Source: Planctomycetota bacterium
Lineage (GTDB): Bacteria; Planctomycetota; UBA1135; GCA-002686595
Reading direction: 5' to 3'
DNA length: 64,000 nt
Assembly (NCBI GenBank): GCA_009691855.1
Contig: SIAI01000006.1
Span: forward strand, 1 to 64,000
The notes under the pieces were generated by a model, which saw only the letters and a program-made list of their open reading frames with translations, was not told the origin of the DNA and made no database searches. This document shows positions 8,141 through 37,081 of the stretch, piece after piece. How positions within the stretch are numbered: the first letter of the stretch is position 1; each line of letters begins with the position of its first letter. The translations under genes and the position numbers were made by a program.

Positions 8141-10105
8141 TCAGGGCTGCCGGCCTTGTGCCTGATAGAGCGCGCGCGCCTCGGCGTAGCACCTGCGCGC
8201 TTCCTCCATGCGCCCCTGGCGCTCCAGCGCGACGCCCAGGTTGTTGAGCGCGTCGGCGTAGTCCGCGTCGAGCTCCACCGCGCGCCGGAAGCAGCGTTCG
8301 GCTTCCACGGCGTCGCCCGCCTGCAGCGCCAGTGCTCCGAGGCCGTTCCAGGCGCCGGCGTGCTGCGCGTCCAGCGCCAGCGCGTGCTCGAAGCTCGCCC
8401 GCGCACTGGCCGCGTCATTCAGGTTGAAGCGCGCCTGCCCGAGGTTGAAGTGCGCGTCCACGAGCGACGGATCGAGCGCCAACGCGGCCTCGAACTCCTT
8501 CGCCGCGCGCGGCAGATCGTTCTGCTTCACGCGCAGCCGTCCGAGCTGGTAGCGCACCCACTTCGTGGCCACCAGGCGCTTGGCGAGCTCGAGCTCGCGC
8601 TCGGCGGCCTCCAGCTCGCCCGCGTCGATGTGCAGGCGCGCCAGCGAGGTCAGCGCGTTGGGGTCGAGCGCGCACAGCTCCAGCGCGGAACGCAGCTCAC
8701 GCTCGGCGCGCTCGCGATCGCCACGCTCGAGCCAGTAGGCGCCCAGGGCCGCGTGTGCGAGGTGGTTCTTCTCCGTCACCGTCAGCGCGTGCTCGAACAA
8801 CGTGGGCGTGTCCTGCCAGGTGGCGAGCTGCGTGCGCGTGGCGAACGTGAGCATGCCCAGCGCCGCCAGCGCGAGCGCGCCGAGGCCGAAGCGCGCGCGC
8901 GGCCAGGCGCGCCCGAGCTCGAGCCCGAGCCCGCCGACGATCCAGGCCACCCCGATCAGGGGCAGGTACGTGTAGCGATCCGCGTGCGCCTGCGTGCCGA
9001 CCTGCTTCAGGCCGATCACCGGCACGAGAGTGCCCAGGAACCACAGCCAGCCCACCAGGAACCAGGGCCAACGCGCGCGCGCGCGCCAGGCCGCGAGGCT
9101 GACGCCGACGAGCACCAGCGCGCCGAGCAGCGCGGGCACGAGCAGCACGCGCAGCGGGTCCGCCTCGACCATCGAGGCCAGCGGGTGGTAGACGGCGAGC
9201 CGCGCCGGCCAGAAGCTCTCGCGCAGGTACACGCCGTAGGAGGCCAGCGCGTTCAAGAGGCGCTGGCCGAGCGGCACCGCCCCGCTCCCGCTCGCCGCGC
9301 CGCCGACCTCCTGCGCGTACCAGGTGGCGAGCGCGCCCAGCGCGGCCAGCGCGACCAGCGGGAGTTTTTCCAGCAATAGGCCGTACCGAAAACTCGCCGG
9401 GGGTCCCTTCGCGCGCGTCTCCCCTGGGTGGGCGGGGGTTAGGGATGGGGCGAGCGCCGGCGGTTTCCGTACTCCTCCGCCAAACCTCTGCAACGGCCAG
9501 AGGTCGAGCAGCAGCAGCACGCACGGAAACGTCACCGCCATGGGCTTGGCCAGCAGCGACAGCGCGAACAAGAGCAGCACCCACGCATAGCGCCCGACGG
9601 ACGGCGCGCGGCCGTAGCGCAGGTACGCCAGCAGCGCTGCCAGGAAGAACGCCGCGCACAGGACGTCCTTGCGCTCGCTGGCCCAGGCGACCGACTCGAC
9701 GCGCAGTGGGTGCAGCGCGAACAGCGCCGCCGCCAGGGCCGCGGACCATGGGTTCACGAGCAGCGCCCGGCACAGAAAGAACACCAGCACCGCGTTGAGC
9801 GCGTGCAGCGCCGCATTCACGAGGTGGTGCGGCCCGGGCTCGAGCTCGAACAGCTCGACGTCGAGCATATGCGACACCCAGGTCAGCGGGTGGTAGTTGG
9901 CCGCATAGTGCTCGAAGCCGAAGGCCCAGCGGATCTCCTCCCAGTCGAGCCCCTTGGCGACGTGCGGGTTGTTGACCAGGTAGACCTCGTCGTCGTAGGA
10001 GACGAAGTCGTGCCCGCGCACCGGCCAGTAGAGCGCGAACACCGCCAGCGCCAGGCCGAGTGCGAGCGCGAACGTGCGCAGCCGAGAGGAACCCACGCGC
10101 TCCAC
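8141..10105 (-). CDS. GT-C/TMTC-like multi-TM protein with C-terminal TPRs (paralog P1)
   Basis: YDDEVYLVNNPHV...YHPLTWVSHMLDVELFELEPGPHHLVNAALHALNAV...FALHPLRVESVAWASERKDVL; TPRs such as VDAHFNLGQARFNLNDAASARASFEHALALD. Confidence 0.88.
   Translation of the reverse strand: MERVGSSRLRTFALALGLALAVFALYWPVRGHDFVSYDDEVYLVNNPHVAKGLDWEEIRWAFGFEHYAANYHPLTWVSHMLDVELFELEPGPHHLVNAALHALNAVLVFFLCRALLVNPWSAALAAALFALHPLRVESVAWASERKDVLCAAFFLAALLAYLRYGRAPSVGRYAWVLLLFALSLLAKPMAVTFPCVLLLLDLWPLQRFGGGVRKPPALAPSLTPAHPGETRAKGPPASFRYGLLLEKLPLVALAALGALATWYAQEVGGAASGSGAVPLGQRLLNALASYGVYLRESFWPARLAVYHPLASMVEADPLRVLLVPALLGALVLVGVSLAAWRARARWPWFLVGWLWFLGTLVPVIGLKQVGTQAHADRYTYLPLIGVAWIVGGLGLELGRAWPRARFGLGALALAALGMLTFATRTQLATWQDTPTLFEHALTVTEKNHLAHAALGAYWLERGDRERAERELRSALELCALDPNALTSLARLHIDAGELEAAERELELAKRLVATKWVRYQLGRLRVKQNDLPRAAKEFEAALALDPSLVDAHFNLGQARFNLNDAASARASFEHALALDAQHAGAWNGLGALALQAGDAVEAERCFRRAVELDADYADALNNLGVALERQGRMEEARRCYAEARALYQAQGRQP
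9405..9452. repeat. In-frame insertion element copy 1 with G4 motif
   Basis: ccttcgcgcgcgtctcccctgggtgggcgggggttagggatggggcg, matching 11396-11441 with 2 mismatches; absent from P3-P7 at the homologous position. Confidence 0.75.
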
Positions 10106-12094
10106 TTATCCTCCCGAGCCGGCCGCGTGAAGGGCCTGGCGCGCGGGCTCGAGCTCGGGGTCGAGCTCCAGCGCACGCGTGAAGCTGGCGCGCGCCCCGG
10201 CCGCGTCGCCCTGCGCGCGGCGCGCGATGCCCAGGTTGAAGTGCGCCACGGGGTCGGCGGGGGTCAGAGCGACCACGCGCTCGAAGGCGGCCAGGGCCTC
10301 CGCCACCCGCCGTGCGCCGAGGCGCACCTGGCCGAGGTTGCTCCAGGCCTCGGCGTACTCGGGGCGCAGCTCGAGGGCTCGCAGGTAGCGCTCCTCGGCA
10401 GCCGCCGCGTTCCCCTGGCCATGTTCCAGGTGCCCGAGGTCGAAGTGCAGCTCGGCGTCGCTGGGGCGCCGCTCCAGGCAGCGCGCGAACAGCGCACGCG
10501 CGGCGGCGAAGTTCTGCTGTTCGAGCTCGACCACACCGAGGTTGATCCAGGTGCCGTAGTCCTGTGGATCGATGCGCTGGGCACGCTCCAGCACGCGGCG
10601 CGCGGCGTCGTACTCGCCCAGCTGGATGTGGCACAGCGCCAGGTTGTTGAGCGCCTCCGGCGAGCCCGCATGGATCGCCAGCGAGCGCTCGAAGGCCGTG
10701 CGCGCACTCGGAATGTCGCCCTCGGCCAGCGCGACCTCGCCGAGCTTCATCTGCGCCAGATAGTTGCGCGGTTCGAGCTCCAGAGCGTGCGCGAAGAGCG
10801 CGCGCGTGTCCTGCCAGAAGCCGAGCTGTGTTCGCGTGAGTCCGGCGCACAGCAACGCGGCCACGAGTCCGAGGGCGAGCAGCGCACGCGCCGCGCGCGG
10901 CCCGAGCGCGAGGCCCGCACCGGCCAGCGCCGCGACCAGCCCGAGCGAGGGCAAGTAGGTGTAGCGGTCGGCATGCGCCTGGGTCCCGACCTGGATGATT
11001 CCGATGACAGGCGCGAGCAGCACCAGGAACCACACGAGCCCCAGGGCGAAGGCTGGCACCGAGCGTCGCAAGCGCCAGGCGAGCGCGAGCAGCGCGAGGA
11101 GGACCAGGCTCGCGACCGCGGCCGGCAGCGCGAGCTCGCGCGCGGGGGAACTCGTGAGGATCGCGGCGTGGGGATAGAAGACCGAGAGCCGCGCGGGCCA
11201 CACGCTTTGCCACAGGTACAGGCCCACCGCGCGCAGCGCGTTCAGCGCGCGCACGCCGAGGGCGAGCGTGTCCACCGTGCTGGTCGCGCCGCCGCGCGAC
11301 TGCACCAGGACCGTGGCCAGGGCCGACAGACCGGCCAGCGCGAAGAGCGGGAGTTTTTCGAGAAAAAGTCCGTACCGAAGTTGCGCGCGAGGCTCCTTCG
11401 CGCGCGTCTCCCCTGGGTGGGTGGGGGCTAGGGATGGGGCGGGCGCGAGCGGTTTCCACGCGCCTCTGGAAAACCTCCGCAACGGCCACAAGTCGAGCAA
11501 CCCCACCACGCAAGGAAACGTCACCGCCATCGGCTTGGCCAGCAGCGCGAGCACGAACAGCAACACCATCCCTGCATACCGCCCGAGCGACGGCGCGCGC
11601 CCGTAGCGCAGGTACGCCAGCGTCGCGGCCAGGAAGAACGTCGCGCACAGGACGTCCTTGCGCTCCGCCGCCCACGCCACCGACTCGACGCGCAGTGGGT
11701 GCAGCGCGAACAGCGTCGCGCCGATGCCCGCCGCCCAGGCGTTCCCGAGCAGGGCCAGCAGGACGTACAGCGCCAGCACCGCGTTCAGCGCGTGCAGCCC
11801 CACGCTCACCAGGTGATGCCCGGCCGGGCGAAACTCGAAGCACTCCACGTCGACGATGTGCGACAGCCACGTCAGCGGGTGGTAGTTCGCCGCGTAGCCG
11901 TCGAAGGAGAACGCCCAGCGCAGCGCCTCCGCGTCCAGTCCGCGCGCCACGTGCGGGTTCTCGAGCAGGTACACGTCGTCGTCGTAGCGCACCCAGTCGT
12001 GCCCGGCCACGGGCAGGTACACGAGCACCACGCCGAGCGCCAGGCACAGCGCGAGCACCAGCGCCGTGCGCCGCTGTCGCGCGCCGCTATCCAC
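10106..12094 (-). CDS. GT-C/TMTC-like multi-TM protein with TPRs (paralog P2)
   Basis: YDDDVYLLENPHVARGL...NYHPLTWLSHIVDVECFEFRPAGHHLVSVGLHALNA...FALHPLRVESVAWAAERKDVL; multiple TPRs. Confidence 0.88.
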   Translation of the reverse strand: MDSGARQRRTALVLALCLALGVVLVYLPVAGHDWVRYDDDVYLLENPHVARGLDAEALRWAFSFDGYAANYHPLTWLSHIVDVECFEFRPAGHHLVSVGLHALNAVLALYVLLALLGNAWAAGIGATLFALHPLRVESVAWAAERKDVLCATFFLAATLAYLRYGRAPSLGRYAGMVLLFVLALLAKPMAVTFPCVVGLLDLWPLRRFSRGAWKPLAPAPSLAPTHPGETRAKEPRAQLRYGLFLEKLPLFALAGLSALATVLVQSRGGATSTVDTLALGVRALNALRAVGLYLWQSVWPARLSVFYPHAAILTSSPARELALPAAVASLVLLALLALAWRLRRSVPAFALGLVWFLVLLAPVIGIIQVGTQAHADRYTYLPSLGLVAALAGAGLALGPRAARALLALGLVAALLCAGLTRTQLGFWQDTRALFAHALELEPRNYLAQMKLGEVALAEGDIPSARTAFERSLAIHAGSPEALNNLALCHIQLGEYDAARRVLERAQRIDPQDYGTWINLGVVELEQQNFAAARALFARCLERRPSDAELHFDLGHLEHGQGNAAAAEERYLRALELRPEYAEAWSNLGQVRLGARRVAEALAAFERVVALTPADPVAHFNLGIARRAQGDAAGARASFTRALELDPELEPARQALHAAGSGG
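11396..11441. repeat. In-frame insertion element copy 2 with G4 motif
   Basis: ccttcgcgcgcgtctcccctgggtgggtgggggctagggatggggcg; see copy 1. Confidence 0.75.
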
Positions 12095-13691
12095 CGCCGA
12101 GTCCCTTCGCGAGCTCCTGCCCCAGGCGCCGCGCGGACTCGTCGTTCACCAGCCGCGGGTCGCACTCCAGGGCGCGCGTGAGCTGCGCGTCCGCCGCGGC
12201 GTGCTCGTCCGAGCGGAACAGTGCCCAGGCCAGACTCAGGTGTGCATCCGCGCTCGCGGGCCGCAGCGCGACCGCGCGCTCGAGCGCCGTCCGCGCTGCC
12301 GCCCAGTCGTCGCGCAGATAGAGCGCCTTGCCGAGGTTCAGCTGGGCCTCGAAGAAGCGCGGCGAGATCGCCGCCGCGGCCTCGAAGTGCTCCTCGGCCT
12401 CCTCGAAACGGCGCTCCTGCGCCAGGGCCAGGCCGAGGTTGTTGTGCGCGACGAAGTTGCGCTCGGTGTGCGCGAGGGCGTTCTGGAACAGCGCCTCGGA
12501 GCTCTGCCACACCGCGACCTGGCGCACGCTCTGCAGCGTTAGCGCGGCGAGCGCCAGCATGCCGAGGCCGAGGAGCGCGCCGCGCCAAGCGGGCCGCGCG
12601 TGCACCAGCTCTGCCGCGCTCCACACCAGCGCGAGTTCGAGCCCCAGCGCGGCGAGGTACGCGTAGCGGTCGGCGTGGGCCAGGGTGCCGGCTTGCACGA
12701 GGCCGATCATCGGCACGAGCAGGCCGAGGAACCAGCACCAACCGACGAGCAGCCACGGCATGCGTCGGCGCAGGCGCAGCGCGCCCCACGTCAGCCCCGC
12801 GAGCAAGGCGAGCGCCAGCAGCGCCGGCACGAGGCGCGACTCCTCCGGCGCGACCAGCGCCGGGTGCGGGTAGTACACGGCGAGCCCGACCGGCCACAGG
12901 TACTGTCCGAGGTAGGTCGCGTAGGCGGCGAGCGCGTTCGCGAGGCGCGCGCCGAGCGCGATGGGCGCGTCGAGCGCGCCACCGGCGCGCTGCGCTTCGA
13001 GCGTGAGCGCGATCGAGGCCGCCGCGAGCGCGGCCAGCGGGACCTTCTCCAGCACGAGCGCGCGCCAGCCCCAGCGGCGCTCGAGCGGCCAGACGTCGAG
13101 CACCAGCAGCAAGCACGGCACCGTCACCAGCGTGGGCTTCGCCATCAAGCCCGCTCCCAGCGCCAGCGCGACCCAGGAATAGTTCCGGCGCGACGGTGCC
13201 CGCGCATAGCGCGCGTAGGCCAGCAGCGTCAGCGCGAAGAACGTCCCCGCGAGCACGTCCTTGCGTTCCGCGATCCACGCCACCGACTCCACGCGCAGCG
13301 GGTGCAGCGCGAACAGCGCGGCGACGAAGGCGCTCGGCCACGCCCGGCCCGTGAGCGCGCGCAGCGCCAGGAACAGCAGCGCCGCGTTGAGCGCGTGCAG
13401 CAACGCGTTCACCAGGTGGTGCTTGCCCGCGTCGAACGCGAACAGCTCGACGTCGAGCGCGTGCGACAGCCATGTCAGCGGGTGCCAGTTGTACTGGTAG
13501 TCCGTGCTGGTGAAGGCCCAGCGCACGCTCGCGCCCGTGAGGCCGCTCTCGATGTGCGTGTTGCGCAGCACGTAGCCCGGATCGTCGTATTCGACGAAGG
13601 GGAAGCCCGCCGTGCAGAAGTAGAGCGCGAGCGCGACGCCGAACAGCGCCAGCGCGACGAGCAGCGGATTCGGATGCGACCTCTCCGCCAC
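12087..13691 (-). CDS. GT-C/TMTC-like multi-TM protein with TPRs (paralog P3)
   Basis: YDDPGYVLRNTHI...NWHPLTWLSHALDVELFAFDAGKHHLVNALLHALNAALLF...FALHPLRVESVAWIAERKDVLAG; overlaps the P2 start. Confidence 0.88.
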   Translation of the reverse strand: MAERSHPNPLLVALALFGVALALYFCTAGFPFVEYDDPGYVLRNTHIESGLTGASVRWAFTSTDYQYNWHPLTWLSHALDVELFAFDAGKHHLVNALLHALNAALLFLALRALTGRAWPSAFVAALFALHPLRVESVAWIAERKDVLAGTFFALTLLAYARYARAPSRRNYSWVALALGAGLMAKPTLVTVPCLLLVLDVWPLERRWGWRALVLEKVPLAALAAASIALTLEAQRAGGALDAPIALGARLANALAAYATYLGQYLWPVGLAVYYPHPALVAPEESRLVPALLALALLAGLTWGALRLRRRMPWLLVGWCWFLGLLVPMIGLVQAGTLAHADRYAYLAALGLELALVWSAAELVHARPAWRGALLGLGMLALAALTLQSVRQVAVWQSSEALFQNALAHTERNFVAHNNLGLALAQERRFEEAEEHFEAAAAISPRFFEAQLNLGKALYLRDDWAAARTALERAVALRPASADAHLSLAWALFRSDEHAAADAQLTRALECDPRLVNDESARRLGQELAKGLGGG

Positions 13692-13701
13692 GACGCGCGA
13701 G

Positions 13702-15219
13702 CTACTCGCCCTCCTTCTGCTCCTCTTTCTTGTCCTCTTTTTTCTTGGGCGGCGCGGCGGACGGCTGCGAGGAATCGTCGCCGGTGTAGCCGAGGCTGCG
13801 CAGCGCCTCCTTCTCGTCGTCCGAGAGCGGCTCCACGATGCCCACGTCGCCCGGCTTCGGCCACAGCTTGCGATAGCCCTCGAGCTCGTCGAGCATGTGC
13901 TTGGCGCGCTCAGGCTGCGCGCCGTAGAGGTTGGTGAGCTCGCCCGGATCTTTGGCGAGGTCGATCAGGTAGTGCGTGCCGTTCGAGCTCCAGCCGAACT
14001 TGTGCTGGTCCTCGAGCAGCACGCGCCAGTCGCCCCGGTTGCGCCAGTCCTTGGGGTTCTTCTCCGAGCCGACGCTCATCATCGGCAGCTTGTAGAGCTC
14101 GGCCACGACCGGGTGGTGCTGGCCGAAGGGCCGGCCCTGCACGTGCGGGGGGAGCTCGATGCCCAGGCGCTCGAGGATCGTCGGCAGCACGTCCACCTGC
14201 TGCACGAAGGTCGCGTCCTGGCCCTTGCGCGCGTTCGCGCCGGGCTCCTTCACGAAGAACGGGATGTGGATCTCGGGCTCGCTGAGCGAGTCGCCGTGGC
14301 CCCACAAGCCTTGATCGACCTCGGCCTTGGGATCGCCGAGCACCGGCTCGCCGATCAGCTCGCCGTGGTCGGCGAGCACGATGATCCAGGTGTTCTCGTA
14401 CAGCCCGCTCAGCTTGAGGTGGTCGAGCAGCTTGCCGATCTCCGCGTCCATGTGGCGGATCTCGGCGTCGTAGCAGATGTTGGCGAAGGTGCGATAGTCC
14501 ATCCGCGACGGATCGAAGCCCGGCGGCAGCACGGGGCGGACGTCCTGCAGCGGCTTCGGTGGCTCGGTGGGCTTGCCTTCGGCGTCGAGCTTCGGATCGG
14601 TGAACCACGGGCTGTGCGGGTCGTAGTAGTTCAGGAACAGGAAGAACCCGGCGTCGCGGTGCTCGTCCACGTACTCGATCGCCGCGCGCGTCACGTCCTC
14701 GGCCGGGCGACCGTTGAGCGCGGTCACGCCGTCGTCGTCGTAGTGCTCGAAGCCCTTGTTCAGGCGGAAGCGCTTCTTCATCCACGGCCCGGCGATGATC
14801 CCGGCCGTGGCGTAGCCGTTCTCGGAGAGGATCTGCGCCAGGGTGGTCTCGTCCTCGGCGATCGGCCGCGCGCGGTAGCCGCCGTACTGCGCGCCGATCT
14901 CCTCGCCCAGGATCAGCGGCCCTTGGGGGTCGTAGTTCGCGCCGTGCGCGCTCGGGAATTTTCCCGTGAAAATCGAGGCGTGCGTGGGCATGGTCCAGCT
15001 CGAGACCGCGTAGGCGTTCGTGTACACGAGCGAGTCCTGCGCCAGGCGGTCGAGGTTGGGCGAGGTCGGAATCTTGTGCCCGTACATCCCCAGGTGGTCG
15101 CGGCGCGTCGTGTCCAGCGTGATCAGCAGGATGTTCGGGCCGTCGACGCGCTTGCCGCAGCCCGGCGAAAGCGCGAGCAGGAGGGCGAGGGCGAGCGGCG
15201 GGGCGGAGATGAAGCGCAT
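13702..15219 (-). CDS. Sulfatase/alkaline-phosphatase superfamily lipoprotein with Thr at the nucleophile position
   Basis: Lipobox LALSPGCGK; NILLITLDTTRRDHLGMYG; SSWTMPTHASIFTG in place of CxPxR; ADHGELIGEP; C-terminal K/E-rich tail. Confidence 0.88.
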   Translation of the reverse strand: MRFISAPPLALALLLALSPGCGKRVDGPNILLITLDTTRRDHLGMYGHKIPTSPNLDRLAQDSLVYTNAYAVSSWTMPTHASIFTGKFPSAHGANYDPQGPLILGEEIGAQYGGYRARPIAEDETTLAQILSENGYATAGIIAGPWMKKRFRLNKGFEHYDDDGVTALNGRPAEDVTRAAIEYVDEHRDAGFFLFLNYYDPHSPWFTDPKLDAEGKPTEPPKPLQDVRPVLPPGFDPSRMDYRTFANICYDAEIRHMDAEIGKLLDHLKLSGLYENTWIIVLADHGELIGEPVLGDPKAEVDQGLWGHGDSLSEPEIHIPFFVKEPGANARKGQDATFVQQVDVLPTILERLGIELPPHVQGRPFGQHHPVVAELYKLPMMSVGSEKNPKDWRNRGDWRVLLEDQHKFGWSSNGTHYLIDLAKDPGELTNLYGAQPERAKHMLDELEGYRKLWPKPGDVGIVEPLSDDEKEALRSLGYTGDDSSQPSAAPPKKKEDKKEEQKEGE

Positions 15220-15331
15220 GCGGAGGCGGGGCGAGGGGCCGGCAGGATACCGAGACGCGGCGCGCGCTTCGCGTTCCCCGTGGCGCTCGTCGGGTGGGCG
15301 TGCCTACGGGCGGCGGCGCGTCCCGTTGGGC

Positions 15332-17155
15332 TCAGGGCGACTTCAGGTAGACCTCGCCGGAGCGGTAGAGGTCGAGGCGCCGGGCGAGCTCGGCGCGGTA
15401 CGCCGCCGGCACGCGCTCGAGCGCGCGCTGCTCGGCGGCGCTGGCTTCGGCGAAGCGTCCGAGGCGCGCCAGCGCGGCGGCCTGGGTCTCCAGGTAGGCG
15501 GCCTGCGCGCCGCTGCTCGCCGCCACGAGGGACTCGGCGAGGGCCAGGGCCTCCTGCGGGGCGGCGCTCGTGCGGCTCGTGGCGAGCACCCAAGCGAGAT
15601 TGTTGAGCTGGACCGGATCGGCGGGCGCGAGCTCGAGCGCGCGGCGTAGATGCGCCAGCGCCTCGGTATCGCGCCCCTGTGCCTGGAGCAGCCAGCCGAG
15701 GCTCGCGTGGGCCGCGCCGAGGGTCTCGTCGGCGGCCAGCGCGCGCGCGAGCTCGGCCTCGGCCTCCTGCGGGCGACCGCCGGCCTCCAGCACGCGCGCC
15801 AGGTTCACGCGCACGCCGGCCAGCGACGGGCGCAGCTCGAGCGCGCGGCGGTAGTGGCGCTCGGCGTCGGCCGGCACCTGCGCGACTTCGAGCGCCTGCC
15901 CGAGCTGCACGTGCGCGACCGGGTTCGCCTCCTCGACCGCCAGCGCGTGCGCGAACAGGCTCAGGTCGCTGCGCCAAACGCTGAGCTGGCGCGCACTCGT
16001 GAAGCCGAGCACGACGAGCCAGCCCGCGATCAGCGCGTTGCGCTGTGCCAGCGAGCGCGGCAGCGCGTCCAGGCCCCACACCAGCGCCAGCGCGAGTCCG
16101 ACCGAGGGCAGGTAGCTGTAGCGCTCGGCCCAGCCCTGCAGCCCGACCTGCAGCAGGCCGATCACGGGCACGAGCGTGCCCAGGAACCACAGCCAGCCGA
16201 CCAGCGCGTACGGCGCGCGCCGGCGCACGGCGACGACGAACACCGTCACGGCGATCAGGAAAGCCAGCGCTACGAACACGCCAGCGGTCCAAATCGACGG
16301 CGCGGGCTCGGCCAGCGCCGGATGCGGATGGTGCACCGCGAGCCCGCTCGGCCAGAAGGTCTTCCACACGTAGAGCGCGTAGGCGTGCACGGCGTTGGCG
16401 ACGCGCGCCGCCAATCCGATGCGTTCGTGCTCGCCGAAGGCGCCGCCCGCGCGCTGCACGACGACGGTGATCGCGCTCGAAGCCGCAGCCAGCGCGAGGA
16501 AGGGCAGCTTCTCGAGCCACACGCGCTTCGCGGCGAGGCGTTTCAGCGGCCACGCGTCCAGCAACAGCAACACGCAAGGAAGCGTGACCAGCATCGGCTT
16601 CGACAGGAGCCCGAGCGCGAACAGCCCGAGCGCGAGCGCGTAGTGCCGCGCGCCGCCGCGCCGCGCGTAGCCCGCGTAGGCCCACAGGCACGCGAAGGCG
16701 AAGCCAGCCGCCAGGAGGTCCTTGCGCTCGGCGATCCAGGCCACCGACTCGACGCGCAGTGGGTGCAGCGCGAACAGCGCCGCGACCAGCGCGCTCTTGT
16801 CCGGCGCCTGCGTCAGCGCGCGCAGCGCGAAGTACAGCAGCGCCGCGTTGAGCGCGTGCAGCACGGCGTTCACGCGATGATGCGCGCCCGCGTTGAGGTC
16901 GAAGAGCTGCACGTCGAGCTGGTGCGAGAGCCAGGTCAGCGGATGCCAGTTGGCGGCGTGGCCGGTGGTGAAGGCCCAGCGCACGCCCTCCCACGAGAGC
17001 CCGCCGAGCACGCCGTCGTTTTTCGTGACGTAGTCGGTGTCGTCGTAGTTCAGGAACGCGAACTCACCCGTGCGCCAGTACAGCGCCAGCACCAGCAAAG
17101 CGAGCCACGCGCCGCGGCCGGCCGGACGTGCGAGGAGGGCGCGCAGCCAGGCCAT
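15332..17155 (-). CDS. GT-C/TMTC-like multi-TM protein with TPRs (paralog P4)
   Basis: YDDTDYVTKNDGV...NWHPLTWLSHQLDVQLFDLNAGAHHRVNAVLHALNAALLY...FALHPLRVESVAWIAERKDLL; start at 17155. Confidence 0.88.
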   Translation of the reverse strand: MAWLRALLARPAGRGAWLALLVLALYWRTGEFAFLNYDDTDYVTKNDGVLGGLSWEGVRWAFTTGHAANWHPLTWLSHQLDVQLFDLNAGAHHRVNAVLHALNAALLYFALRALTQAPDKSALVAALFALHPLRVESVAWIAERKDLLAAGFAFACLWAYAGYARRGGARHYALALGLFALGLLSKPMLVTLPCVLLLLDAWPLKRLAAKRVWLEKLPFLALAAASSAITVVVQRAGGAFGEHERIGLAARVANAVHAYALYVWKTFWPSGLAVHHPHPALAEPAPSIWTAGVFVALAFLIAVTVFVVAVRRRAPYALVGWLWFLGTLVPVIGLLQVGLQGWAERYSYLPSVGLALALVWGLDALPRSLAQRNALIAGWLVVLGFTSARQLSVWRSDLSLFAHALAVEEANPVAHVQLGQALEVAQVPADAERHYRRALELRPSLAGVRVNLARVLEAGGRPQEAEAELARALAADETLGAAHASLGWLLQAQGRDTEALAHLRRALELAPADPVQLNNLAWVLATSRTSAAPQEALALAESLVAASSGAQAAYLETQAAALARLGRFAEASAAEQRALERVPAAYRAELARRLDLYRSGEVYLKSP

Positions 17156-17157
17156 GC

Positions 17158-19212
17158 TCAGCGCTCCAGCGCGCGGCCGGCCTGGTAGCTCGCGAGCTCG
17201 GCCTTCAGTCGCTCCCATTGCGCGCGCGGCGCGGCGGCAAAGGCCTCGGCCTGGGCCGCGGCGGCCTGCTTGAACTGGCCCTGCGCCGCCAGCACCGCGG
17301 CCTGCACGCGCTGGTGCGTCCAGTGCGCGCCGTCGCGGGCCGCGCAGCGTTGCAGCAGCGCCGCCGCGCGCGCCGGGTCGCGCAGCTCGCCGGCGCGCGT
17401 CGCGCGCAGCCAGGCCTCGCCGTGCAGCGCGCGCGCGAGCTCGGGCGCGCGGCGCTGAGCCGCCGAGAAGTGCGCCAGCGCCGCGCGCGCGTCACCGAGT
17501 TCGTCGAGCGCGCTGCCGAGGTCGCATTCGGCCTCGGCCGAGCCAGGCTCGCGCTCCAGCGCGCGCTCGAAGGCCGTGCGCGCCTCGGCCAGGCGTCCGA
17601 GCGTGAGCAACACGCCGCCGCATTGCCTCCAGGCCTCGGCCGACTCGGGGTGCTCGCGCACGGCGCGCTGATAGTGCTCGAGCGCAGCGGCGAGGTCGCC
17701 CTCGCGCTCCAGCAAGAGGCCCCACGAGAGGCGCGCGTCGAGGAAGTCCGGTACCAGGCGCAGCGCCTCACGGAACTCGGCCACGGCCAGCTCGCGCTGT
17801 CCCTGCTGCGCGTACAGCGCGCCCAGGTTGCCGTGCGCGCTGTACAGGTCGGGCACGATCGCCAGCGCGGCCTGGTAGTGCTCGCGCGCACCCACCAGCT
17901 CGCCGCGGCCCTGCAGGTACATGCCGAGGTTCTGGTGCGCGACGTAATTGCGCTCGGTGACCTCCAGCGCGCGCGCATACAGCGTCGGGTCGTCCTTCCA
18001 GGTCCCGACCTGACGGTAGGTGAGCGTCGCGCAGGCCGCGCCGGCGACGAGGCCGAGCGCGAACAGCGCGCGCTGCAGGGCCACGGCCCGCACGAGTTCA
18101 CGCAGGCCGAAGACGAGCGCGATCGTCAGCCCGAGCAGCGGCAGGTACGCATAGCGATCGGCGTAGAACTGCGAGCCGACCTGCACCAGGCCGATCACGG
18201 GCGCCAGCATGAGCCCCATCCAGCTCCAGCCCACGAACAACGCCGGCGCCCGCGCGCGCAGGCGCCAGGCGCCATAGGTCAGCGCCACGAGCGCGACCGC
18301 GGCGAGCCACACGCGCGTGCCCAGCGGCGCGAACTCCTGCGGCGTGACGAAGGCCGGGTGCGGATAGAAGAAGGCCAGCTCCAGCGGCCAAAAGGCCTTG
18401 CCCACGTAGGCGAAGGTGCCCAGCACCGCGGTGGCGACGCGCGCGTCGAGGGGCAGCACCTCGATCGAGCGCACGGCGTTGCCCGCGCGCTGGGCGTAGA
18501 GCGTGACCAGTGCCGAGGCCAGCGCCAGCGCCAGGAAGGGCAGCTTCTCCAGCACGCGCGCGCGCAGCGGGCGCGGCGGCGTCTGCGCCAGCGGCCAGAG
18601 GTCGAGCAGCACGAGCACCAGTGGCAGCGTGACGAGCATGGGCTTCGCCAGGAGGCCGAGCGCGAAGCAGCCGAGCGCGAGCGCGTGACGTCCGCGCGAG
18701 GGCGCGCGCGCGTAGCGCAGGTAGGCCAGCAGCGTCAGGAAGAAGAACGTCGCGCACAGCACGTCCTTGCGCTCGGCGGCCCAAGCCACGGATTCGACGC
18801 GCTGCGGGTGCACCGCAAAGAGCAGCGCGACCAGCGCGCTCGCCCACAGACTGCCCGTCGCGCGGCGCAGGAACAGGAAGCACAGCACCGCGTTCAGCGC
18901 GTGCAGCGCGCCGCTCATCAGGTGATGGGGGCCAGCCGCCAGGGCGAACAGCTGCACGTCGAGCTGGTGCGAGAGCCAGGTCAGCGGATGCCAGTTGGCC
19001 GAGTGGAACTCGCTGAAGGCCCAGCGCGCGTTCTCCAGGCTCAGGCCGCTGTTCACGTGCGGGTTCTTGGCGATGTACGAGCCGTCGTCGAAGCTGACGA
19101 AGCCATGCTGTCTCGTCTGCACGTACAGCGCGCCGACCACCAGCACCAGAGCGACGGCGACGAGGAGCTCGATGCGCGCGCCGGCACCGCGTGCTCGCTC
19201 GGCCGTGCTCAT
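17158..19212 (-). CDS. GT-C/TMTC-like multi-TM protein with TPRs (paralog P5)
   Basis: FDDGSYIAKNPHV...NWHPLTWLSHQLDVQLFALAAGPHHLMSGALHALNAV...FAVHPQRVESVAWAAERKDVLCATFF; start at 19212 overlaps P6 stop (ATGA). Confidence 0.88.
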   Translation of the reverse strand: MSTAERARGAGARIELLVAVALVLVVGALYVQTRQHGFVSFDDGSYIAKNPHVNSGLSLENARWAFSEFHSANWHPLTWLSHQLDVQLFALAAGPHHLMSGALHALNAVLCFLFLRRATGSLWASALVALLFAVHPQRVESVAWAAERKDVLCATFFFLTLLAYLRYARAPSRGRHALALGCFALGLLAKPMLVTLPLVLVLLDLWPLAQTPPRPLRARVLEKLPFLALALASALVTLYAQRAGNAVRSIEVLPLDARVATAVLGTFAYVGKAFWPLELAFFYPHPAFVTPQEFAPLGTRVWLAAVALVALTYGAWRLRARAPALFVGWSWMGLMLAPVIGLVQVGSQFYADRYAYLPLLGLTIALVFGLRELVRAVALQRALFALGLVAGAACATLTYRQVGTWKDDPTLYARALEVTERNYVAHQNLGMYLQGRGELVGAREHYQAALAIVPDLYSAHGNLGALYAQQGQRELAVAEFREALRLVPDFLDARLSWGLLLEREGDLAAALEHYQRAVREHPESAEAWRQCGGVLLTLGRLAEARTAFERALEREPGSAEAECDLGSALDELGDARAALAHFSAAQRRAPELARALHGEAWLRATRAGELRDPARAAALLQRCAARDGAHWTHQRVQAAVLAAQGQFKQAAAAQAEAFAAAPRAQWERLKAELASYQAGRALER

Positions 19213-21659
19213 TTCTTGCGCGTGTAGGGTTTCTGCGCGCGGTAGAGCTCGAGGCGTTCGCTCTGCTCCTGCTTGTGCGCCGCGCTGCGCTCGACCTGCA
19301 CGGCCTGCTCCTGCACCTGCACGGCCTTGGCGAAGTCGCCCGCACGCGCCTGCGCGGCGGCCAGGACCTCCAGCGCGTTGGCGGCCTTGCGCTGCATGGC
19401 GTAGGTGGCGAGCTCGAGCGCGCGCGCGCCGTCCAGCAGCGCCTCGTCCGGGCCCGTGGCCAGGATCCAGGCCGCGGCGCAGGCCGCGTCGGGATCCGGC
19501 GTGCCGGCGGCGAAGGCCTTGTCGTAGCACTCCAGCGCCTTGGCCCACTGGCCGGTCTGCTCGTAGGCCGCGGCCAGGTTGCTCAGCGCCAGCGGGAAGT
19601 CGGGCAGGCGCTTCAGCGCGTCCTGCAGGAGCCGGATCGCTTCCTCCGGCTTCTTCTCGTCCATGGCGATCGCGGCCAGCGCGATCAGCGCCTGCGGATC
19701 GCCGGGGCGGATGTCGTTGACGGCCTGGAACTGGCTGCGCGCGGCTTCGCGCTCGCCGGCGCTGAGCAGCAGCGTGCCGAGGTCGTAGCGCGCGCGCGAG
19801 GAACTCGGGTCGAGCGCCACCGCGCGCTCCAGGGCCTTGCGCGCGGTCGGCACGTCGCCCTTCTGCAGCGCGAGGCGTCCGCGCAGCGCGCACAGCTCGG
19901 CGGTCTCGCCGCTCAGCGCCTGCGCGGACTGCAGGCGCTGGCTGGCCTCGGCCGCGTCGCCGCCACGCATGGCGATCTCGGCCAGCACCACCTGCGCGTC
20001 GGCCAGCGAGGCGTCGAGCTTGAGCGCGCTGGTGGCGAGGTTCGCCGCGCGCTCCAGATCGCCCTGCTCCAGCAGGAAACGCGCGAAGGCCGCCCACAGC
20101 CCGCCGTGAGCGGGGTTCTTTTCGAGCGCCTGCTCGAAGAACGTGCGCGCCTGCTCGACGTTGCCCTGCGCGCGCGCCAGCGCGGCCAGGCGCAGCAGCG
20201 TCTCGGGGTGTCCGGGGTGGACCTCCAGCGCGGACAGGTAGACCTGCACCGCCTGCCCGAACTCGCGCTCGGCTTCGAACGCCAGGCCGAGGTTGTAGCG
20301 CGCCTGCACGAAGCTCGGGCGCACGCGACTGGCCGCGGCGAAGTGCTCGCGCGCGGGCGCGGTCTCGCGCCGTGCCAGGTACACCAGGCCGAGGTTGTTG
20401 TGCGCCAGCCAGTTCTGGTCGTTGACCGACAGGGCGTGCTCGTACAACGAGCGATCGTCGCGCCAGTGCGGCAAGGTGCGCGCGCTCACGACGGCCAGGG
20501 CGCCGGCCATGGCGAGGCCGCCCAGCGTCAGGCCCACCAGCAGGTTCTCGTGCGCGCGCCAGGCCTCGGCGAGGCCGAAGGCCAGCGCCACGTACAGGCC
20601 GATCGTCGGCAGGTAGGCGTAGCGATCGGCCCAGGCCTGGTCGCCGACCTGCACCAGGCCCAGCACCGGCACGAGCATGCCCAGGAACCAGAACCAACCG
20701 CTGAAGAACGCCGGACAGCAGGCGCGCGAGCGCCAGGCGAGCGCCGATACGCCCAGCGCCAGCACGACTCCGGCGACGCCGGTCGCGAGCACGTTCTGCC
20801 CGATCAAGAGCGGGTGCGGATAGAAGAACGTCAGCTCCGCCGGCCACAGCGTGGCGCGCAGATAGGCGAGCAGACCCGAGCCCGCGCTCCACACGCGCTC
20901 CAGCAGCGACAGCTGGCTCAGGTCGCCGACCGCGCCGCCCGCGCGCTGCGCCAGCAGCGTCAGCACACACGAGCCCGCGGCCAGCGCGAGGTGTGGCAGC
21001 TTTTCGAGCACGAGGCCGCGCCAGGTGGCGCCGTTCTGCGTGCGCTTCAGCGGCCAGAGGTCGAGCAGCAACAGCACGAACGGCGCCGTGACCAGCGTGG
21101 GCTTGGCCATCAGGCCCAGCGCCAGCAGCGCGAGCGTGGCGAGGTACGCGCCGCGTCCGCGCGTGCGTGCGTAGCGTGCGTAGGCGAGCAGGAGGCCGAA
21201 GAAGCAGACGGCCGCGAGGAGCTCCTTGCGCTCGCTGACCCAGGCCACGCACTGCACGCGCAGCGGGTGCGCGGCGAACAGCGCGGCGACGACGAAGCTC
21301 GGCCAGAAGCGCGCGCACAGCGCCACGAGCGCGGCGAACAGGAGCGCCGCGCCGAGCGCGTGCAAGCCCGCGTTCTCGAGGTGCATGGCGCCGCTCGCGC
21401 CGTGGAAGCGGTCCGCGTCGGCCATCAGCGACACCCACGTCAGCGGGTGCCAGTTGGCGGCGTGGAAGCCGAAGGCCCAGCGCAGCCCCTCGGCCGAGAG
21501 TCCGCGCGCGATGACCGGGTTCGCGGTGACGTAGTCCGGGTCGTCGAAGTTCAGGAACTCGAAGCCGCCGACCGGCAGGTACAGCACGAATGTCAGTGCG
21601 GCCAGGAGCAAGGCAGCCCAGAGCACACGGCCCCGCGCGGGAGTCTCTTCGGCGATCAT
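19209..21659 (-). CDS. GT-C/TMTC-like multi-TM protein with extended TPR region (paralog P6)
   Basis: FDDPDYVTANPVI...NWHPLTWVSLMADADRF...FAAHPLRVQCVAWVSERKELLA; many TPRs, C-terminal ERLELYRAQKPYTRKK. Confidence 0.88.
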   Translation of the reverse strand: MIAEETPARGRVLWAALLLAALTFVLYLPVGGFEFLNFDDPDYVTANPVIARGLSAEGLRWAFGFHAANWHPLTWVSLMADADRFHGASGAMHLENAGLHALGAALLFAALVALCARFWPSFVVAALFAAHPLRVQCVAWVSERKELLAAVCFFGLLLAYARYARTRGRGAYLATLALLALGLMAKPTLVTAPFVLLLLDLWPLKRTQNGATWRGLVLEKLPHLALAAGSCVLTLLAQRAGGAVGDLSQLSLLERVWSAGSGLLAYLRATLWPAELTFFYPHPLLIGQNVLATGVAGVVLALGVSALAWRSRACCPAFFSGWFWFLGMLVPVLGLVQVGDQAWADRYAYLPTIGLYVALAFGLAEAWRAHENLLVGLTLGGLAMAGALAVVSARTLPHWRDDRSLYEHALSVNDQNWLAHNNLGLVYLARRETAPAREHFAAASRVRPSFVQARYNLGLAFEAEREFGQAVQVYLSALEVHPGHPETLLRLAALARAQGNVEQARTFFEQALEKNPAHGGLWAAFARFLLEQGDLERAANLATSALKLDASLADAQVVLAEIAMRGGDAAEASQRLQSAQALSGETAELCALRGRLALQKGDVPTARKALERAVALDPSSSRARYDLGTLLLSAGEREAARSQFQAVNDIRPGDPQALIALAAIAMDEKKPEEAIRLLQDALKRLPDFPLALSNLAAAYEQTGQWAKALECYDKAFAAGTPDPDAACAAAWILATGPDEALLDGARALELATYAMQRKAANALEVLAAAQARAGDFAKAVQVQEQAVQVERSAAHKQEQSERLELYRAQKPYTRKK

Positions 21660-21728
21660 GCGGGGGAAGGGGGCGGGGCCGGACCGATCAGCGTGGGCTC
21701 GCGGGGTACGTCAGGGGACCCGCAGCGT

Positions 21729-21749
21729 TGGAATCGGGCCGGGATTCCA
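21729..21749. terminator. Short hairpin in the gap between P7 and P6
   Basis: tggaatc-gggccgg-gattcca within the 164-nt gap. Confidence 0.35.
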
Positions 21750-21823
21750 GCACACGCCGCGCGCGCCGTCCATCGGAAGAATGCGCCCTCGTCGCTCCCG
21801 CGCCGTTCGCGCCGCGCGCGGGC

Positions 21824-23869
21824 TCAATGAGCGTGGTGGTAGGGCGCGTCGCGCCGGTAGAGCTCGAGACGTTCGCGCGCCGCGCCCTGCTGGTTCGGCG
21901 GCAGGAGGCGCAGCGCTTCTTCCTGCACGGCGACGGCGCGCTCGAAGTCGCCGCCGGCGGCGAGCGCGGCGGCCAGCGCCTCGAGCGTCGGCGGATCGCG
22001 GCGCTGCGTGGCCTGCACCGCTCGGCGGGCGAGCTCCAGCGCGCGCTGCGGATCGCGTAGCTCGTCCTCGGCGGCCGAGGCGAGGATCCAGGCGGCGAGG
22101 CGCGCGGCGTTCGTGCGCGTCGGATCGGCGAGCGCGCGCTCCAGCGCCGCGAGCGCGGCCCGGTGCTCGCCCTGGGCCTCGCGCACCTCGCCGAGCTTCT
22201 CCCAGGCCGCGGCGGCGCCCGGGTTCGCGCGCACGGCGGCCTCGAGGTGCTCGGCGGCGGGCTCGTACTGGCGGTGCAGCAGCAGCAGCAGCGCGAGGTC
22301 GTAGTGCGCGTCGGGGTGCTCGGGGAAGAGCTCGAGCACGCGCTCGAAGGCCTGCGCGGCCTCGACCTCGTCGCCGCGCTCCGCGAGCAGCATGCCGAGG
22401 TTCAGTTGTGCTGCGGCGAGCCCCGGCAGCGCCTCGCTCGCGCGGCGGTAGAGCGCGAGCGCGCGCTCCGCGTCGCCGTGCTCCTGCTCGAGCAGGCCGA
22501 GGCCGTACAGCGCTGGCGCGTAGCTGGCGCGGATCGCCAGCGCTTCCTCGTAGGCCGTGCGCGCGCCCGCGACCTCGCCGCGCGCCGCGCGTTCGTTGGC
22601 CAGGCCGACCCAGGCCGGATAGTTCTGCTCGGTGACCGCCAGCGCGTGCGTGAACAGCGCTTCGGAGTCGTGCCACACGCGCGCCTGGCGCGCGCTGGCC
22701 ACGCCGCAGGCGACGAGCGCGAGCGCAGCGCCCGCGCCGAGCGGCAAGCGCACGCGCGTCTGGCGGCGCGCGAGCTCGCCCAGCGCGAACACCAGCACGA
22801 GCTGCACGCCCACCAGCGGCAGGTACGCGTAGCGATCGGCCAGGGCCTGCTCGCCGACCTGCACGATGCCGATCACCGGCACGAGCATGCCCAGGAACCA
22901 GAACCAGCCGCAGAAGAATGCGCCGCTGCGCCGGCGCACGGCCCAGGCGAGCGCGCTCAGCGTGAGCACGCCGCCGAGCGCGCTCAGTGCCCCCAGCGTC
23001 CACGGCGTGGCGCGGGCGGCCACCAGCGCGGGGTGCGGATAGAAGTAGGAGAGCTCGCTCGGCCAGACGAAGTGCGCGAGGTAGCGCAGCACCGCCACGG
23101 GTGCGTTGGCCAGGCGCGCGTCGAGTGGCAGTACTTCCAGCGTGTACAGCGAGCCGCCCGCGCGCTGGCTCCACACCGTGGCCGCGCAGGACAGCGCCGC
23201 CAGCGCGAGCAGCGGCAGCTTCTCGAGCCACACCTTGGCGTTCAGGCGTCCATCCGCCGCGCGCAGCCGCGCCAGCGGCCAGAAGTCGAGCAAGAGCAGC
23301 ACGCACGGCGCCGTGACCAGCATCGGCTTGGCCAGCAAGCCGAGCGCGAAGCACGCCAGCAGCAGCGCATAGCGGCCGGCGCTCGGCGCGCGCGCGTAGC
23401 GCGCGTAGGCCAGGAGCAGCGCGAAGAACGCCGAGCCCGAGAGCACGTCCTTGCGCTCGCTGACCCAGGCCACGGACTCGACGCGCAGCGGGTGCAGCGC
23501 GAACAGCGCCGCGACCGCCGCGCTCTCCCACGGCCGTGCGCTGAGCGCGCGCAGCGCGAGGAAGCACAGCACCGCGGCCAGCGCGTGCCAGGCGACGCTG
23601 ACCCCGTGGTGCCCGGCGGGAGCGAGCTGGAACAGCTCGACGTCCAGCATGTGCGCGAGCCACGTCAGCGGGTGCCAGTTCGAGGCGTGGGCCGCGCTGA
23701 AGGCCCAGCGCAGCCCGGCCAGGGAGAGGCCGCCGCGCACGGCCGGGTTCTCGAGCACGTAGTCGGGGTCGTCGTAGCGTACGAACTCGAAGCCCAGGAC
23801 CTGCGCGTACACGGCCGCCACCGCGCCCACCAGCGCCAGCACGACCCAGCCCGTGCGCGGCGCGCTCAT
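21824..23869 (-). CDS. GT-C/TMTC-like multi-TM protein with TPRs (paralog P7)
   Basis: YDDPDYVLENPAVRGGL...NWHPLTWLAHMLDVELFQLAPAGHHGVSVAWHALAAV...FALHPLRVESVAWVSERKDVL; C-term ERLELYRRDAPYHHAH; start 23869 overlaps P8 stop. Confidence 0.88.
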   Translation of the reverse strand: MSAPRTGWVVLALVGAVAAVYAQVLGFEFVRYDDPDYVLENPAVRGGLSLAGLRWAFSAAHASNWHPLTWLAHMLDVELFQLAPAGHHGVSVAWHALAAVLCFLALRALSARPWESAAVAALFALHPLRVESVAWVSERKDVLSGSAFFALLLAYARYARAPSAGRYALLLACFALGLLAKPMLVTAPCVLLLLDFWPLARLRAADGRLNAKVWLEKLPLLALAALSCAATVWSQRAGGSLYTLEVLPLDARLANAPVAVLRYLAHFVWPSELSYFYPHPALVAARATPWTLGALSALGGVLTLSALAWAVRRRSGAFFCGWFWFLGMLVPVIGIVQVGEQALADRYAYLPLVGVQLVLVFALGELARRQTRVRLPLGAGAALALVACGVASARQARVWHDSEALFTHALAVTEQNYPAWVGLANERAARGEVAGARTAYEEALAIRASYAPALYGLGLLEQEHGDAERALALYRRASEALPGLAAAQLNLGMLLAERGDEVEAAQAFERVLELFPEHPDAHYDLALLLLLHRQYEPAAEHLEAAVRANPGAAAAWEKLGEVREAQGEHRAALAALERALADPTRTNAARLAAWILASAAEDELRDPQRALELARRAVQATQRRDPPTLEALAAALAAGGDFERAVAVQEEALRLLPPNQQGAARERLELYRRDAPYHHAH

Positions 23870-25890
23870 CGCTGCTGGCGTTGCTCGAGTTCCTCGAGCA
23901 GCGCGCGCGCCTCGGCCTGCTCGGAGTTGAAGCGCAGCACGGCCTCCAGGCGCGCGCGCGCCAGCTCGTCCTCGTCGCGCTGCATGTGCAGGCGCGCGCT
24001 GGCGTTGTGCGCGCGGAAGTGCGGCGTGGCGCGCGGCAGCTCGCACACGCGGTCGTAATAGCGCAAGGCTTCGTCCGCGCGCTGCGAACGATTGCACAGC
24101 TCGGCCAGGGCGAACAGCGCTTCGGCCGAGTCCGGGTTCACGCCGATGGCCCGGCGGTAGGCCGCCTCGGCCGCGGTCCGGTCGCCCTCGTCCTCCAGGA
24201 TCCGCCCGAGCGCCGAGCGCGCGTCGGGGTGGTCGGGCTCGAGGGCGAGCGCACGCTCGAAGCATTCTCGCGCCCGCACAGTGTCCTTGTCCTGGGCCAG
24301 GCCGAGGCCGCACCAGGCTTCCGCGGAGCGCGGATCGAGCTCGCTGGCGCGCGCGAAGGCCGCGCGCGCTCCGGCCGCGTCTCCCAGGTTGCGCCGACAC
24401 ATGCCGAGGCGCGTCCAGGCGAGGAGCTCGTCGGGTTCGTCGGCGAGCGCGCTCTCGAGCAGCGCGCGTGCCGCCACGTCGTCGTGCAGACGCTGGTGGA
24501 CCTCCGCCAGGCGCGCGCGCGCCCGTGGCAGCACCTCGGCGCGCTGCAGGAACGGCACGGCGGCCAGCAGGTGCGCCTCCTCGCCCGGGATCAGTCCGCG
24601 GCGCAGCTCGAGTTCGCCGCGGTGCAGCCAGGCCTGGGCGTCGTCGGCGCGCGCGGCCAGGGCAGCTTCGTAGGCGCGCTGCGCGGCGGAGAGTCGGCCG
24701 TGGGCCAGGTGCCACTGGCCCAGCGCGTCGTGCGCGCGCACGTCGGCGGGGTTCACGCCGAGCGCGCTCGCCTGCAGCGAGGGTTCGTCGCGCCAGTCGG
24801 CCAGACGCGCGTGCGTGCGCGCGGCGCAGGCCAGGAACGCCAGCGCACCCAGCGCGAGCCCCGCGCGGCGCAGGGGCGCGAGCGCGTCGAGCAGCGCCAG
24901 CACGAGCCCGAGGCTGGCGAGGAGTACGCTGGCCTCGGCGAAGACGCCATCACCGTTCGGGAACAGCACCGCGGCCGAGCCCACCAGTGCGAACAGCGCC
25001 GCGCCCAGCGCCGCCCAGGGGCGACGTCGTCCGAGCCGCCAACCGAGTGCGAGCATGCCGGCCAGGGCGAGCCAGCTCACACCCAGCAGCCACGCCGGCA
25101 CGGACTCGCTCAGCGCGCGCTGGGGCGTGAGCGCCGCGGGCCACAGCCATGAACCGAGCAGCGAGCCCAGCGCGAGCGGCAGGCGCGCGAGCCCGTCGAG
25201 CGCGGGGCGGCCGCCGCCGAGGCCCGCCGCCAACCCCGCCAGGCCGAGCGCCAGCAGGATCCCGTCCATCCAGCCGAGCCGGCGTGGCGCGCGGCCCGCG
25301 GCCCGTGCGTGTTGGCGCTCGAGCCCCAGCAACCACGGCAGCGCGCACACCAGCGGCGGCGCGGCCACGAGCGCGACGAAGAGCGCCGCGCTTGCGGTCG
25401 GGGAGCGCGTCGCGCGTCCGCGGTCCAGCGCCAGGCAGGCGCCGAGCAGGAACGCGAACGCGCCCAGCAGCGCGCCGCGCTGCGACAGCCAGGCCAGGCT
25501 CTCGACGCCCAACGGGTGGCAGGCGAACAGCAGCGCGCCCAGCGCCGCGAAGGTGCGCGCGAAGCCCAGGCGCAGGAAGAGCACGAGAACGAGCGCGCTC
25601 GCGCCGGCGTGCAGAGCCAGGGCGAACCCGCGCGCGAGGAGTGCCGAATCGTGCAGGCCCTCGATGTACAGGCTCGACCCGCCCAGGCCGGCGAGGCGCC
25701 AGGCCTGGCCCAGGCTGCGCGCGGCGGCCAGCGGCGCATCGCCGATCGAGAGCGCCTCCCAGCGCAGCGTGGGCCCGAAGAGCGCCAGCTCGGCCGCGGC
25801 TAGCCCCAGCAGCGGGCCGAGCATGCCGGCCGGTTGCGAGCTGCGCGGCGCGAGCGGGGAGGGGGCGGGGGACGACAAGGGCCGCAGCAT
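23866..25890 (-). CDS. Divergent TPR multi-TM protein lacking DD and HPLTW motifs (paralog P8)
   Basis: Retains FACHPLGVESLAWLSQRGALLGA, TM segments and TPRs; N-terminal region has no [YF]DD or NWHPLTW. Confidence 0.8.
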   Translation of the reverse strand: MLRPLSSPAPSPLAPRSSQPAGMLGPLLGLAAAELALFGPTLRWEALSIGDAPLAAARSLGQAWRLAGLGGSSLYIEGLHDSALLARGFALALHAGASALVLVLFLRLGFARTFAALGALLFACHPLGVESLAWLSQRGALLGAFAFLLGACLALDRGRATRSPTASAALFVALVAAPPLVCALPWLLGLERQHARAAGRAPRRLGWMDGILLALGLAGLAAGLGGGRPALDGLARLPLALGSLLGSWLWPAALTPQRALSESVPAWLLGVSWLALAGMLALGWRLGRRRPWAALGAALFALVGSAAVLFPNGDGVFAEASVLLASLGLVLALLDALAPLRRAGLALGALAFLACAARTHARLADWRDEPSLQASALGVNPADVRAHDALGQWHLAHGRLSAAQRAYEAALAARADDAQAWLHRGELELRRGLIPGEEAHLLAAVPFLQRAEVLPRARARLAEVHQRLHDDVAARALLESALADEPDELLAWTRLGMCRRNLGDAAGARAAFARASELDPRSAEAWCGLGLAQDKDTVRARECFERALALEPDHPDARSALGRILEDEGDRTAAEAAYRRAIGVNPDSAEALFALAELCNRSQRADEALRYYDRVCELPRATPHFRAHNASARLHMQRDEDELARARLEAVLRFNSEQAEARALLEELEQRQQR

Positions 25891-36916: not shown

Positions 36917-37081
36917 GCAAGCCTCCTTAGAAAACGAATCGCCGGCGCGGCATGCGTCGGCTGCGCCGAGGCTACGCCCACCCGCGCCAATCGACAGGGT
37001 GGCCCGAGGCGTCATCCCCGACGAACAGAGCCGCCCCGTCGCTCGGGCATCACCAGCACGGTAGGCGGCTGGGCCACCCGC

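Follow-up and report, generated by a model that had tools for sequence, protein, structure and literature searches.

The TMTC proteins are protein O-mannosyltransferases with lumenal tetratricopeptide repeats (TPRs) (PMC7801869, PMC6801728), in which a Glu of motif M4 and an Asp of motif M5 have been proposed as metal ligands, although, at the time of this motif analysis, it had yet to be shown directly that they themselves act as transferases (PMC7801869). Here, we describe a bacterial family related to them, found as a tandem array in a 64,000-nucleotide stretch (hereafter the window) of the draft genome of a Planctomycetota bacterium (assembly GCA_009691855.1, contig SIAI01000006.1, positions 1 to 64,000). 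The window is contig C38 of this 4.28 Mb genome, and translation of the run at 8141-25890 on the minus strand gives seven intact paralogs, P1-P7, each with a GT-C membrane domain followed by TPRs, and one degenerate paralog, P8. The novel points of this locus are the conservation of the array, an altered metal site and the partnership with S1, an enzyme of the alkaline phosphatase superfamily; in open-licence papers, neither the family nor such arrays were found described. The genes are the following:

P1, 8141..10105, minus strand: GT-C membrane domain plus predicted periplasmic TPR domain, 654 aa; all motifs present; recent duplicate of P2 (P1+P2 clade, 100/100)
P2, 10106..12094, minus strand: GT-C/TPR protein, 662 aa; all motifs present
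P3, 12087..13691, minus strand: GT-C/TPR protein, 534 aa, with the shortest TPR part; comes after S1
S1, 13702..15219, minus strand: alkaline-phosphatase-superfamily enzyme, 505 aa; PF00884 (Sulfatase) match at 2.6e-42
P4, 15332..17155, minus strand: GT-C/TPR protein, 607 aa; comes before S1
P5, 17158..19212, minus strand: GT-C/TPR protein, 684 aa; groups with the same-position genes of genomes G010 and G008
P6, 19209..21659, minus strand: GT-C/TPR protein, 816 aa, with the longest TPR array
P7, 21824..23869, minus strand: GT-C/TPR protein, 681 aa; the paralog chosen for AlphaFold modelling
P8, 23866..25890, minus strand: degenerate GT-C/TPR protein, 674 aa, heading the array; scores 62 bits against the family profile
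S2, 26010..27947, plus strand: divergently transcribed neighbour of the array; PF00884 match at 6.2e-38

The membrane domain and its relation to TMTC

Curated models recognise the TPRs of P1-P8 and leave the membrane domain nearly blank: among the window's proteins no family model exceeds its threshold there, and the PMT_2 match of P3 stays below it (24.7 bits, with a cut-off of 26.1). In an alignment of 117 diverse family members, P1-P7 among them, PMT_2 matches 62 (best 1.9e-10). A search of PDB sequences with the family profile gave zero matches up to E = 10, the PMT/POMT (GT39) and ArnT (GT83) chains included, and a plasmid collection held no match to the family. The fold was recognised by structure. 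Full-length P7 was modelled by AlphaFold at a predicted local distance difference test (pLDDT) score of 86.8, and its structure search was dominated by TPR proteins; hence the membrane domain was modelled alone, from 117 sequences, with a mean pLDDT of 96.7. In the Foldseek search of this domain against the PDB, 32 of the entries at ranks 1-33 have titles that name GT-C enzymes or complexes with such an enzyme, with AglB (4.5e-4) and ArnT (6.8e-4) at the top and further matches to STT3/OST, PglB, PIG-U of the glycosylphosphatidylinositol (GPI) transamidase, AftB, AftA, Pmt4, Emb proteins, DPY19 and Pmt1-Pmt2; the remaining entry, 9n9j, is titled a translocon, and we take its chain to be STT3. 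The GT-C fold, which the original prediction had proposed from the letters of the sequence, is confirmed by this model.

The order of helices in the model, together with the bias in charge, predicts 11 transmembrane helices and a periplasmic TPR domain. In particular, the five cytoplasmic loops hold 1.7-3.2 Lys plus Arg per 10 aa and the large periplasmic loops only 0.3-0.7, a bias that places the TPRs outside. The predicted arrangement agrees with the 1-6-4 layout that has been described for TMTC and POMT (PMC6801728). PMT/POMT and ArnT share with the array family the GT-C fold, the matches to PMT_2 and an acidic pair in loop 1, but they have no TPR, and the PMTs carry MIR domains, which the array family lacks.

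The similarity among the paralogs is far beyond chance, P7 being 52-56% identical to P3-P6 over about 400 aa (E < 1e-108), and every motif quoted in the original prediction is present in P1-P7. Nine positions are invariant in all 117 aligned members, namely the acidic pair D33 D34 of the first external loop, N41, P67, H126, K140, K181, R346 and Y349. With TMTC1-4 (CAZy GT105, TMTC_DUF1736), protein O-mannosyltransferases of the endoplasmic reticulum, the family shares a GT-C membrane domain of 11 transmembrane helices followed by lumenal or periplasmic TPRs, and a series of motifs: DD in loop 1, HP.[HR].E.[VA] with R.D/E.L in loop 2, Lys and Thr in loop 3 and [DE]R..Y in loop 5. Each TMTC motif (PMC7801869) has an aligned counterpart, with fixed replacements of RPLT by HPLT, KE by KP, ADY (or DW) by [FL]YPHP, typically FYPHP, and GER by ADR. 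In loop 1 (NWHPLT), His stands where TMTC has Arg in 114 of the 117 members, while P-L-T is retained; in the ERKD of loop 2, the Arg is kept in 116 and the Asp in 110; in loop 3, Lys is universal and Thr is found in 107, and the position of the TMTC Glu is occupied by Pro (100), Ser (11) or Gln (5). At the position of the TMTC Asp, within FYPHP of loop 4, there is no acidic residue, and in DRYxY of loop 5 Arg and Tyr are present throughout, with Asp mostly in place of Glu.

These replacements remove both proposed metal ligands, and the family also differs from TMTC1-4 in being bacterial, in occurring in conserved arrays and in forming a separate clade. PF08409 (TMTC_DUF1736) matches none of the 117 members and no protein of the window's own genome. 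Matches to it exist in 30 of 300 Planctomycetota genomes, and all 20 of the PF08409-positive proteins that were fetched match the array-family profile, 12 over most of the length of the profile and the others over part of it, several of these loci or matches being partial. An hhalign comparison of the family with nine PF08409-positive bacterial proteins gave E 2e-42 over 398 columns, and a starred branch (97) of a midpoint-rooted tree, which contains several long rows, parts the array family and a few weaker homologs from the PF08409-positive proteins. The comparison covered bacterial proteins, and the link to TMTC goes through the PF08409 model of Pfam and these intermediates. On these alignments, the array family is homologous to TMTC and resembles it, yet it is a separate subfamily. 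The original prediction of TMTC-like proteins holds for the succession of elements, the TPR part being predicted to be periplasmic, and for a real homology. An assignment to TMTC proper was ruled out by the PF08409 miss and by motifs M2 (SHKSYRP(LT)), M4 (KE(T/Q)xxT) and M5 (DW).

The PF08409-positive Planctomycetota proteins (L155, L156 and other loci up to L174) have a membrane domain homologous to that of the array family and, in the aligned members, TPR-like C-terminal parts, but their TMTC motifs are near letter-perfect (YRPLT, KES, LSADYS, GERLLYLPS). Scoring above the PF08409 cut-off, they are candidate bacterial TMTCs and could be useful for studying the origin of the eukaryotic family.

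P8 aligns weakly to the family profile. It lacks the DD pair, HPLTW, ERKD and ADRY, and it retains LHAG and FACHPLGVESLAWLSQR; it is probably not catalytic. A counterpart likewise without DD lies at the same position in genome G008 (L048:4979-7066), so that a catalytically depleted GT-C/TPR paralog is retained at the array head in two genera. In G010 a P8-like TPR fragment is found at a contig end, and a candidate in G035 is uncertain, with a low score (33 bits).

Gene order and age of the array

The coordinates, the strand, the presence of motifs in seven of eight genes and the junctions given in the original prediction all match the translation, in which antisense open reading frames of like length, occurring in this GC-rich window, were discarded on the basis of codon-position GC. 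The eight genes had been described as adjacent; S1, which was overlooked, separates P3 from P4 and is transcribed in their direction. P8/P7 and P6/P5 overlap by ATGA (-4), P3/P2 by 8 nt, P2/P1 abut (0) and P5/P4 are 2 nt apart. The tight spacing is consistent with the co-expression that had been thought probable, though the wider gaps of P7/P6 (164 nt) and P4/S1 (112 nt) could each house an internal promoter.

The layout in G008 is identical, with S2 divergent, a P8-like gene, four GT-C genes, S1 and three more GT-C genes, and the flanking GGT, X30 and uvrB genes are common to both genomes. In G010, GT-C genes lie on both sides of S1. The number of GT-C genes is eight in the window and in G008, at least eight in G010 and five in G025.

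In a bootstrapped tree, in which stars mark the P4 group and some pairs alone and the other supports are moderate, the genes group largely by position. P4 falls with the pre-S1 genes of G001 and G010 (99/96, starred), P3 with the post-S1 genes of G008, G010 and G035 and a gene of G009 (95/76), P1/P2 with the position-2 genes of G008 and G010 (88/98) and P5 with its positional counterparts (85/85), while P6/P7, first-position genes and the P5 group together make up one group (88/95). The pre-S1 gene of G008 falls outside the P4 group and, most supports being moderate, positional orthology is assigned to several positions and not to all. The shared gene order and the tree show an old array, several positions of which predate the split of related Planctomycetota genera, and a recent duplication of the whole array is ruled out by the positional orthologs. 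The local duplication expected in the original prediction is borne out in that the genes are related and P1+P2, a lineage-specific pair, is the only well-supported recent duplicate of the array; it does not extend to the several positions that are older than the genus split. The presence of intact-motif positional orthologs in other genera points to selection on the array.

Identity in the C-terminal parts is 34-54% for orthologs and 28-48% for paralogs, against 46-65% in the membrane domains; this lower C-terminal conservation would fit the TPR-dictated acceptor specificity suggested in the original prediction and relaxed constraint alike and does not separate them.

Elsewhere in the window's genome there are one further close copy, on contig C68, and three remote ones. 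GTDB genomes contain at least 583 relatives of the family, and the best 80 of these belong to Planctomycetota, Verrucomicrobiota, Acidobacteriota, Thermodesulfobacteriota, Hydrogenedentota and Armatimonadota. More tandem arrays of the family were seen (L112, L115, L121, L088, L095, L132 and L114) in Verrucomicrobiota, other Planctomycetota, Acidobacteriota, Armatimonadota and Thermodesulfobacteriota, the last including the cultured Desulfonema magnum 4be13 (L114). In a wider tree, built with a quick method and only Shimodaira-Hasegawa-like approximate likelihood ratio (SH-aLRT) supports, separate branches are taken up by the array of a Verrucomicrobium (99), that of a Planctomycetia bin (99) and those of an Acidobacterium (96), an Armatimonadete (94) and L121 (87), indicating that tandem duplication is recurrent and that similar arrays arose independently elsewhere.

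Neighbouring enzymes and a possible sugar donor

S1 has a lipoprotein-like N-terminus. In S2, a hydrophobic N-terminal part (about five transmembrane segments by eye) precedes the alkaline-phosphatase-superfamily domain, an architecture like that of EptA/LtaS. In S1, S2 and their orthologs, the nucleophile position is occupied by Thr (SWTxP or SWTRA; SWTMPTHAS in S1) and not by the Cys/Ser of [CS]xPxR that yields formylglycine; this excludes S1 as a sulfatase. Thr at this position and the metal-site motifs of the superfamily are shared with EptA/LtaS-type and NPP-type enzymes, but S1 and S2 fall under every NCBIfam cut-off. G008 and G010 have S1 at the corresponding position, and G008 also S2; no S2 was seen next to the array fragment in G035. 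Scored at E <= 1e-80, S1 occurs in 7 of 61 relatives, all of them within the 21 that have strong array-family members (best E below 1e-60, by our own counts), as would happen by chance with a probability of 2.7e-4. In G008, an S1-type gene directly adjoins another GT-C gene.

The commonest neighbour family over the fetched loci is a GT2, found at 16 loci by loose clustering, about 10 of them in one tight clade. The best PDB match of a member is dolichol-phosphate-mannose synthase (2.1e-6). The gene is single-copy in 26 of the 61 relatives and directly neighbours a GT-C gene in G002, G008 and G010. It occurs more often where strong array-family members are present (16/21 genomes against 10/40, p 1.6e-4, relatedness uncorrected), and this co-occurrence speaks for a polyprenyl-phosphate sugar as donor. 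At G000:C12:101262-103167, a remote GT-C relative and a GT2 gene adjoin on opposite strands. The extra array-family gene of contig C68 has, about 1.2 kb away, a gene (L055:3949-4866, G000 C68) that is UbiA/DPPR-synthase-like by eye (MRPYQWSKNLFVLAALVFA) and might hint at a pentose donor.

Proposed function and rival readings

It is very probable that P1-P7 are GT-C enzymes. The whole reading that we favour, to which we give somewhat better than an even chance, is that they form a bank of extracytoplasmic glycosyltransferases dependent on polyprenyl-phosphate sugars and most likely directed to proteins. As GT-C_A-type membrane enzymes of a bacterial subfamily sister to TMTC, they would take a sugar from a polyprenyl-phosphate carrier at the inner membrane's outer face, by means of the DD in the first periplasmic loop, the conserved Lys of loop 3 and the Arg of loop 5; in PMT, the equivalents of this Lys and Arg bind the lipid phosphate. 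The sugar would pass to an acceptor held out by the enzyme's own periplasmic TPR superhelix, and the co-inherited, co-oriented paralogs would most likely divide acceptors or sites among themselves, exported proteins being the likeliest acceptors. P8 may be an inactive member retained as partner or scaffold, and S1 probably acts on phosphate esters of the same substrates. Two large proteins with thrombospondin type 3 repeats, one of which also has a VWA domain, are encoded next to each other at 34322-39766 and are possible exported substrates.

Several points weigh against this reading. The glycosyltransferase activity of P1-P7 is a prediction from sequence and modelled fold, and the TM-scores of the model to single PDB entries are modest (0.36-0.53). 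The case for a protein acceptor comes only from TMTC and the TPR domain, and the acceptors of many GT-C enzymes are lipids or glycans. Several models would lead one to expect varied array sizes and duplicates confined to one lineage. As for the donor, the statistic on the co-occurrence of the GT2 ignores genome kinship, and in the window's own genome this GT2 lies on a separate contig, C5.

An alternative, clearly less likely and still to be taken seriously, is that of a glycan assembly line, in which one glycan, either lipid-linked or on the surface, receives successive or branching sugars from the GT-C enzymes, S1 and S2 attach phospho-substituents to it or take them off, and the TPRs hold the enzymes together. 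The ALG and PIG mannosyltransferases and ArnT are the model for such sugar steps, and the ethanolamine-phosphate transferases acting on GPI, lipid A and teichoic acids for those of S1 and S2. The ordered, conserved set with S1 between pre- and post-S1 genes speaks for it, as do the restriction of S1 to relatives with strong members, the S1-type gene beside another GT-C gene in G008 and the Thr that sets S1 and S2 apart from sulfatases; a fixed pathway, however, would not be expected to vary in array size and to gain new duplicates, and the nearest characterised TPR-bearing relatives modify proteins. More doubtful still is a phosphate-decorated glycan on bacterial proteins or lipids, paralleling GPI-anchor synthesis, for which the parts would be the row of diverged TMTC-like transferases, two enzymes that transfer phospho groups and, as organiser, a dead paralog.

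That the GT-C domains are no longer enzymes and serve as TPR-bearing membrane scaffolds appears very improbable: P8 stays at the array head without catalytic residues, and TPR domains are typically scaffolds, but the intact DD, K181, R346 and Y349 of P1-P7 and of all 110 other aligned members argue against pure scaffolds. We give equally little credence to a burst of local duplication that was both recent and selectively neutral. Such a burst would account for the P1/P2 duplicate and for the independent local expansions in other phyla; it is already contradicted by the pattern of orthologs across genera, with the same order around S1 in G008 and G010 and the catalytic residues intact.

The family connects bacterial enzymes to TMTC. 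The bacterial forms are open to work on structure and mechanism and offer a natural test of the need for the metal ligands proposed in TMTC, and conserved banks of paralogs, such as the four genes of the cultured Desulfonema magnum, would allow the acceptor specificity of TPR-linked transferases to be tested gene by gene.

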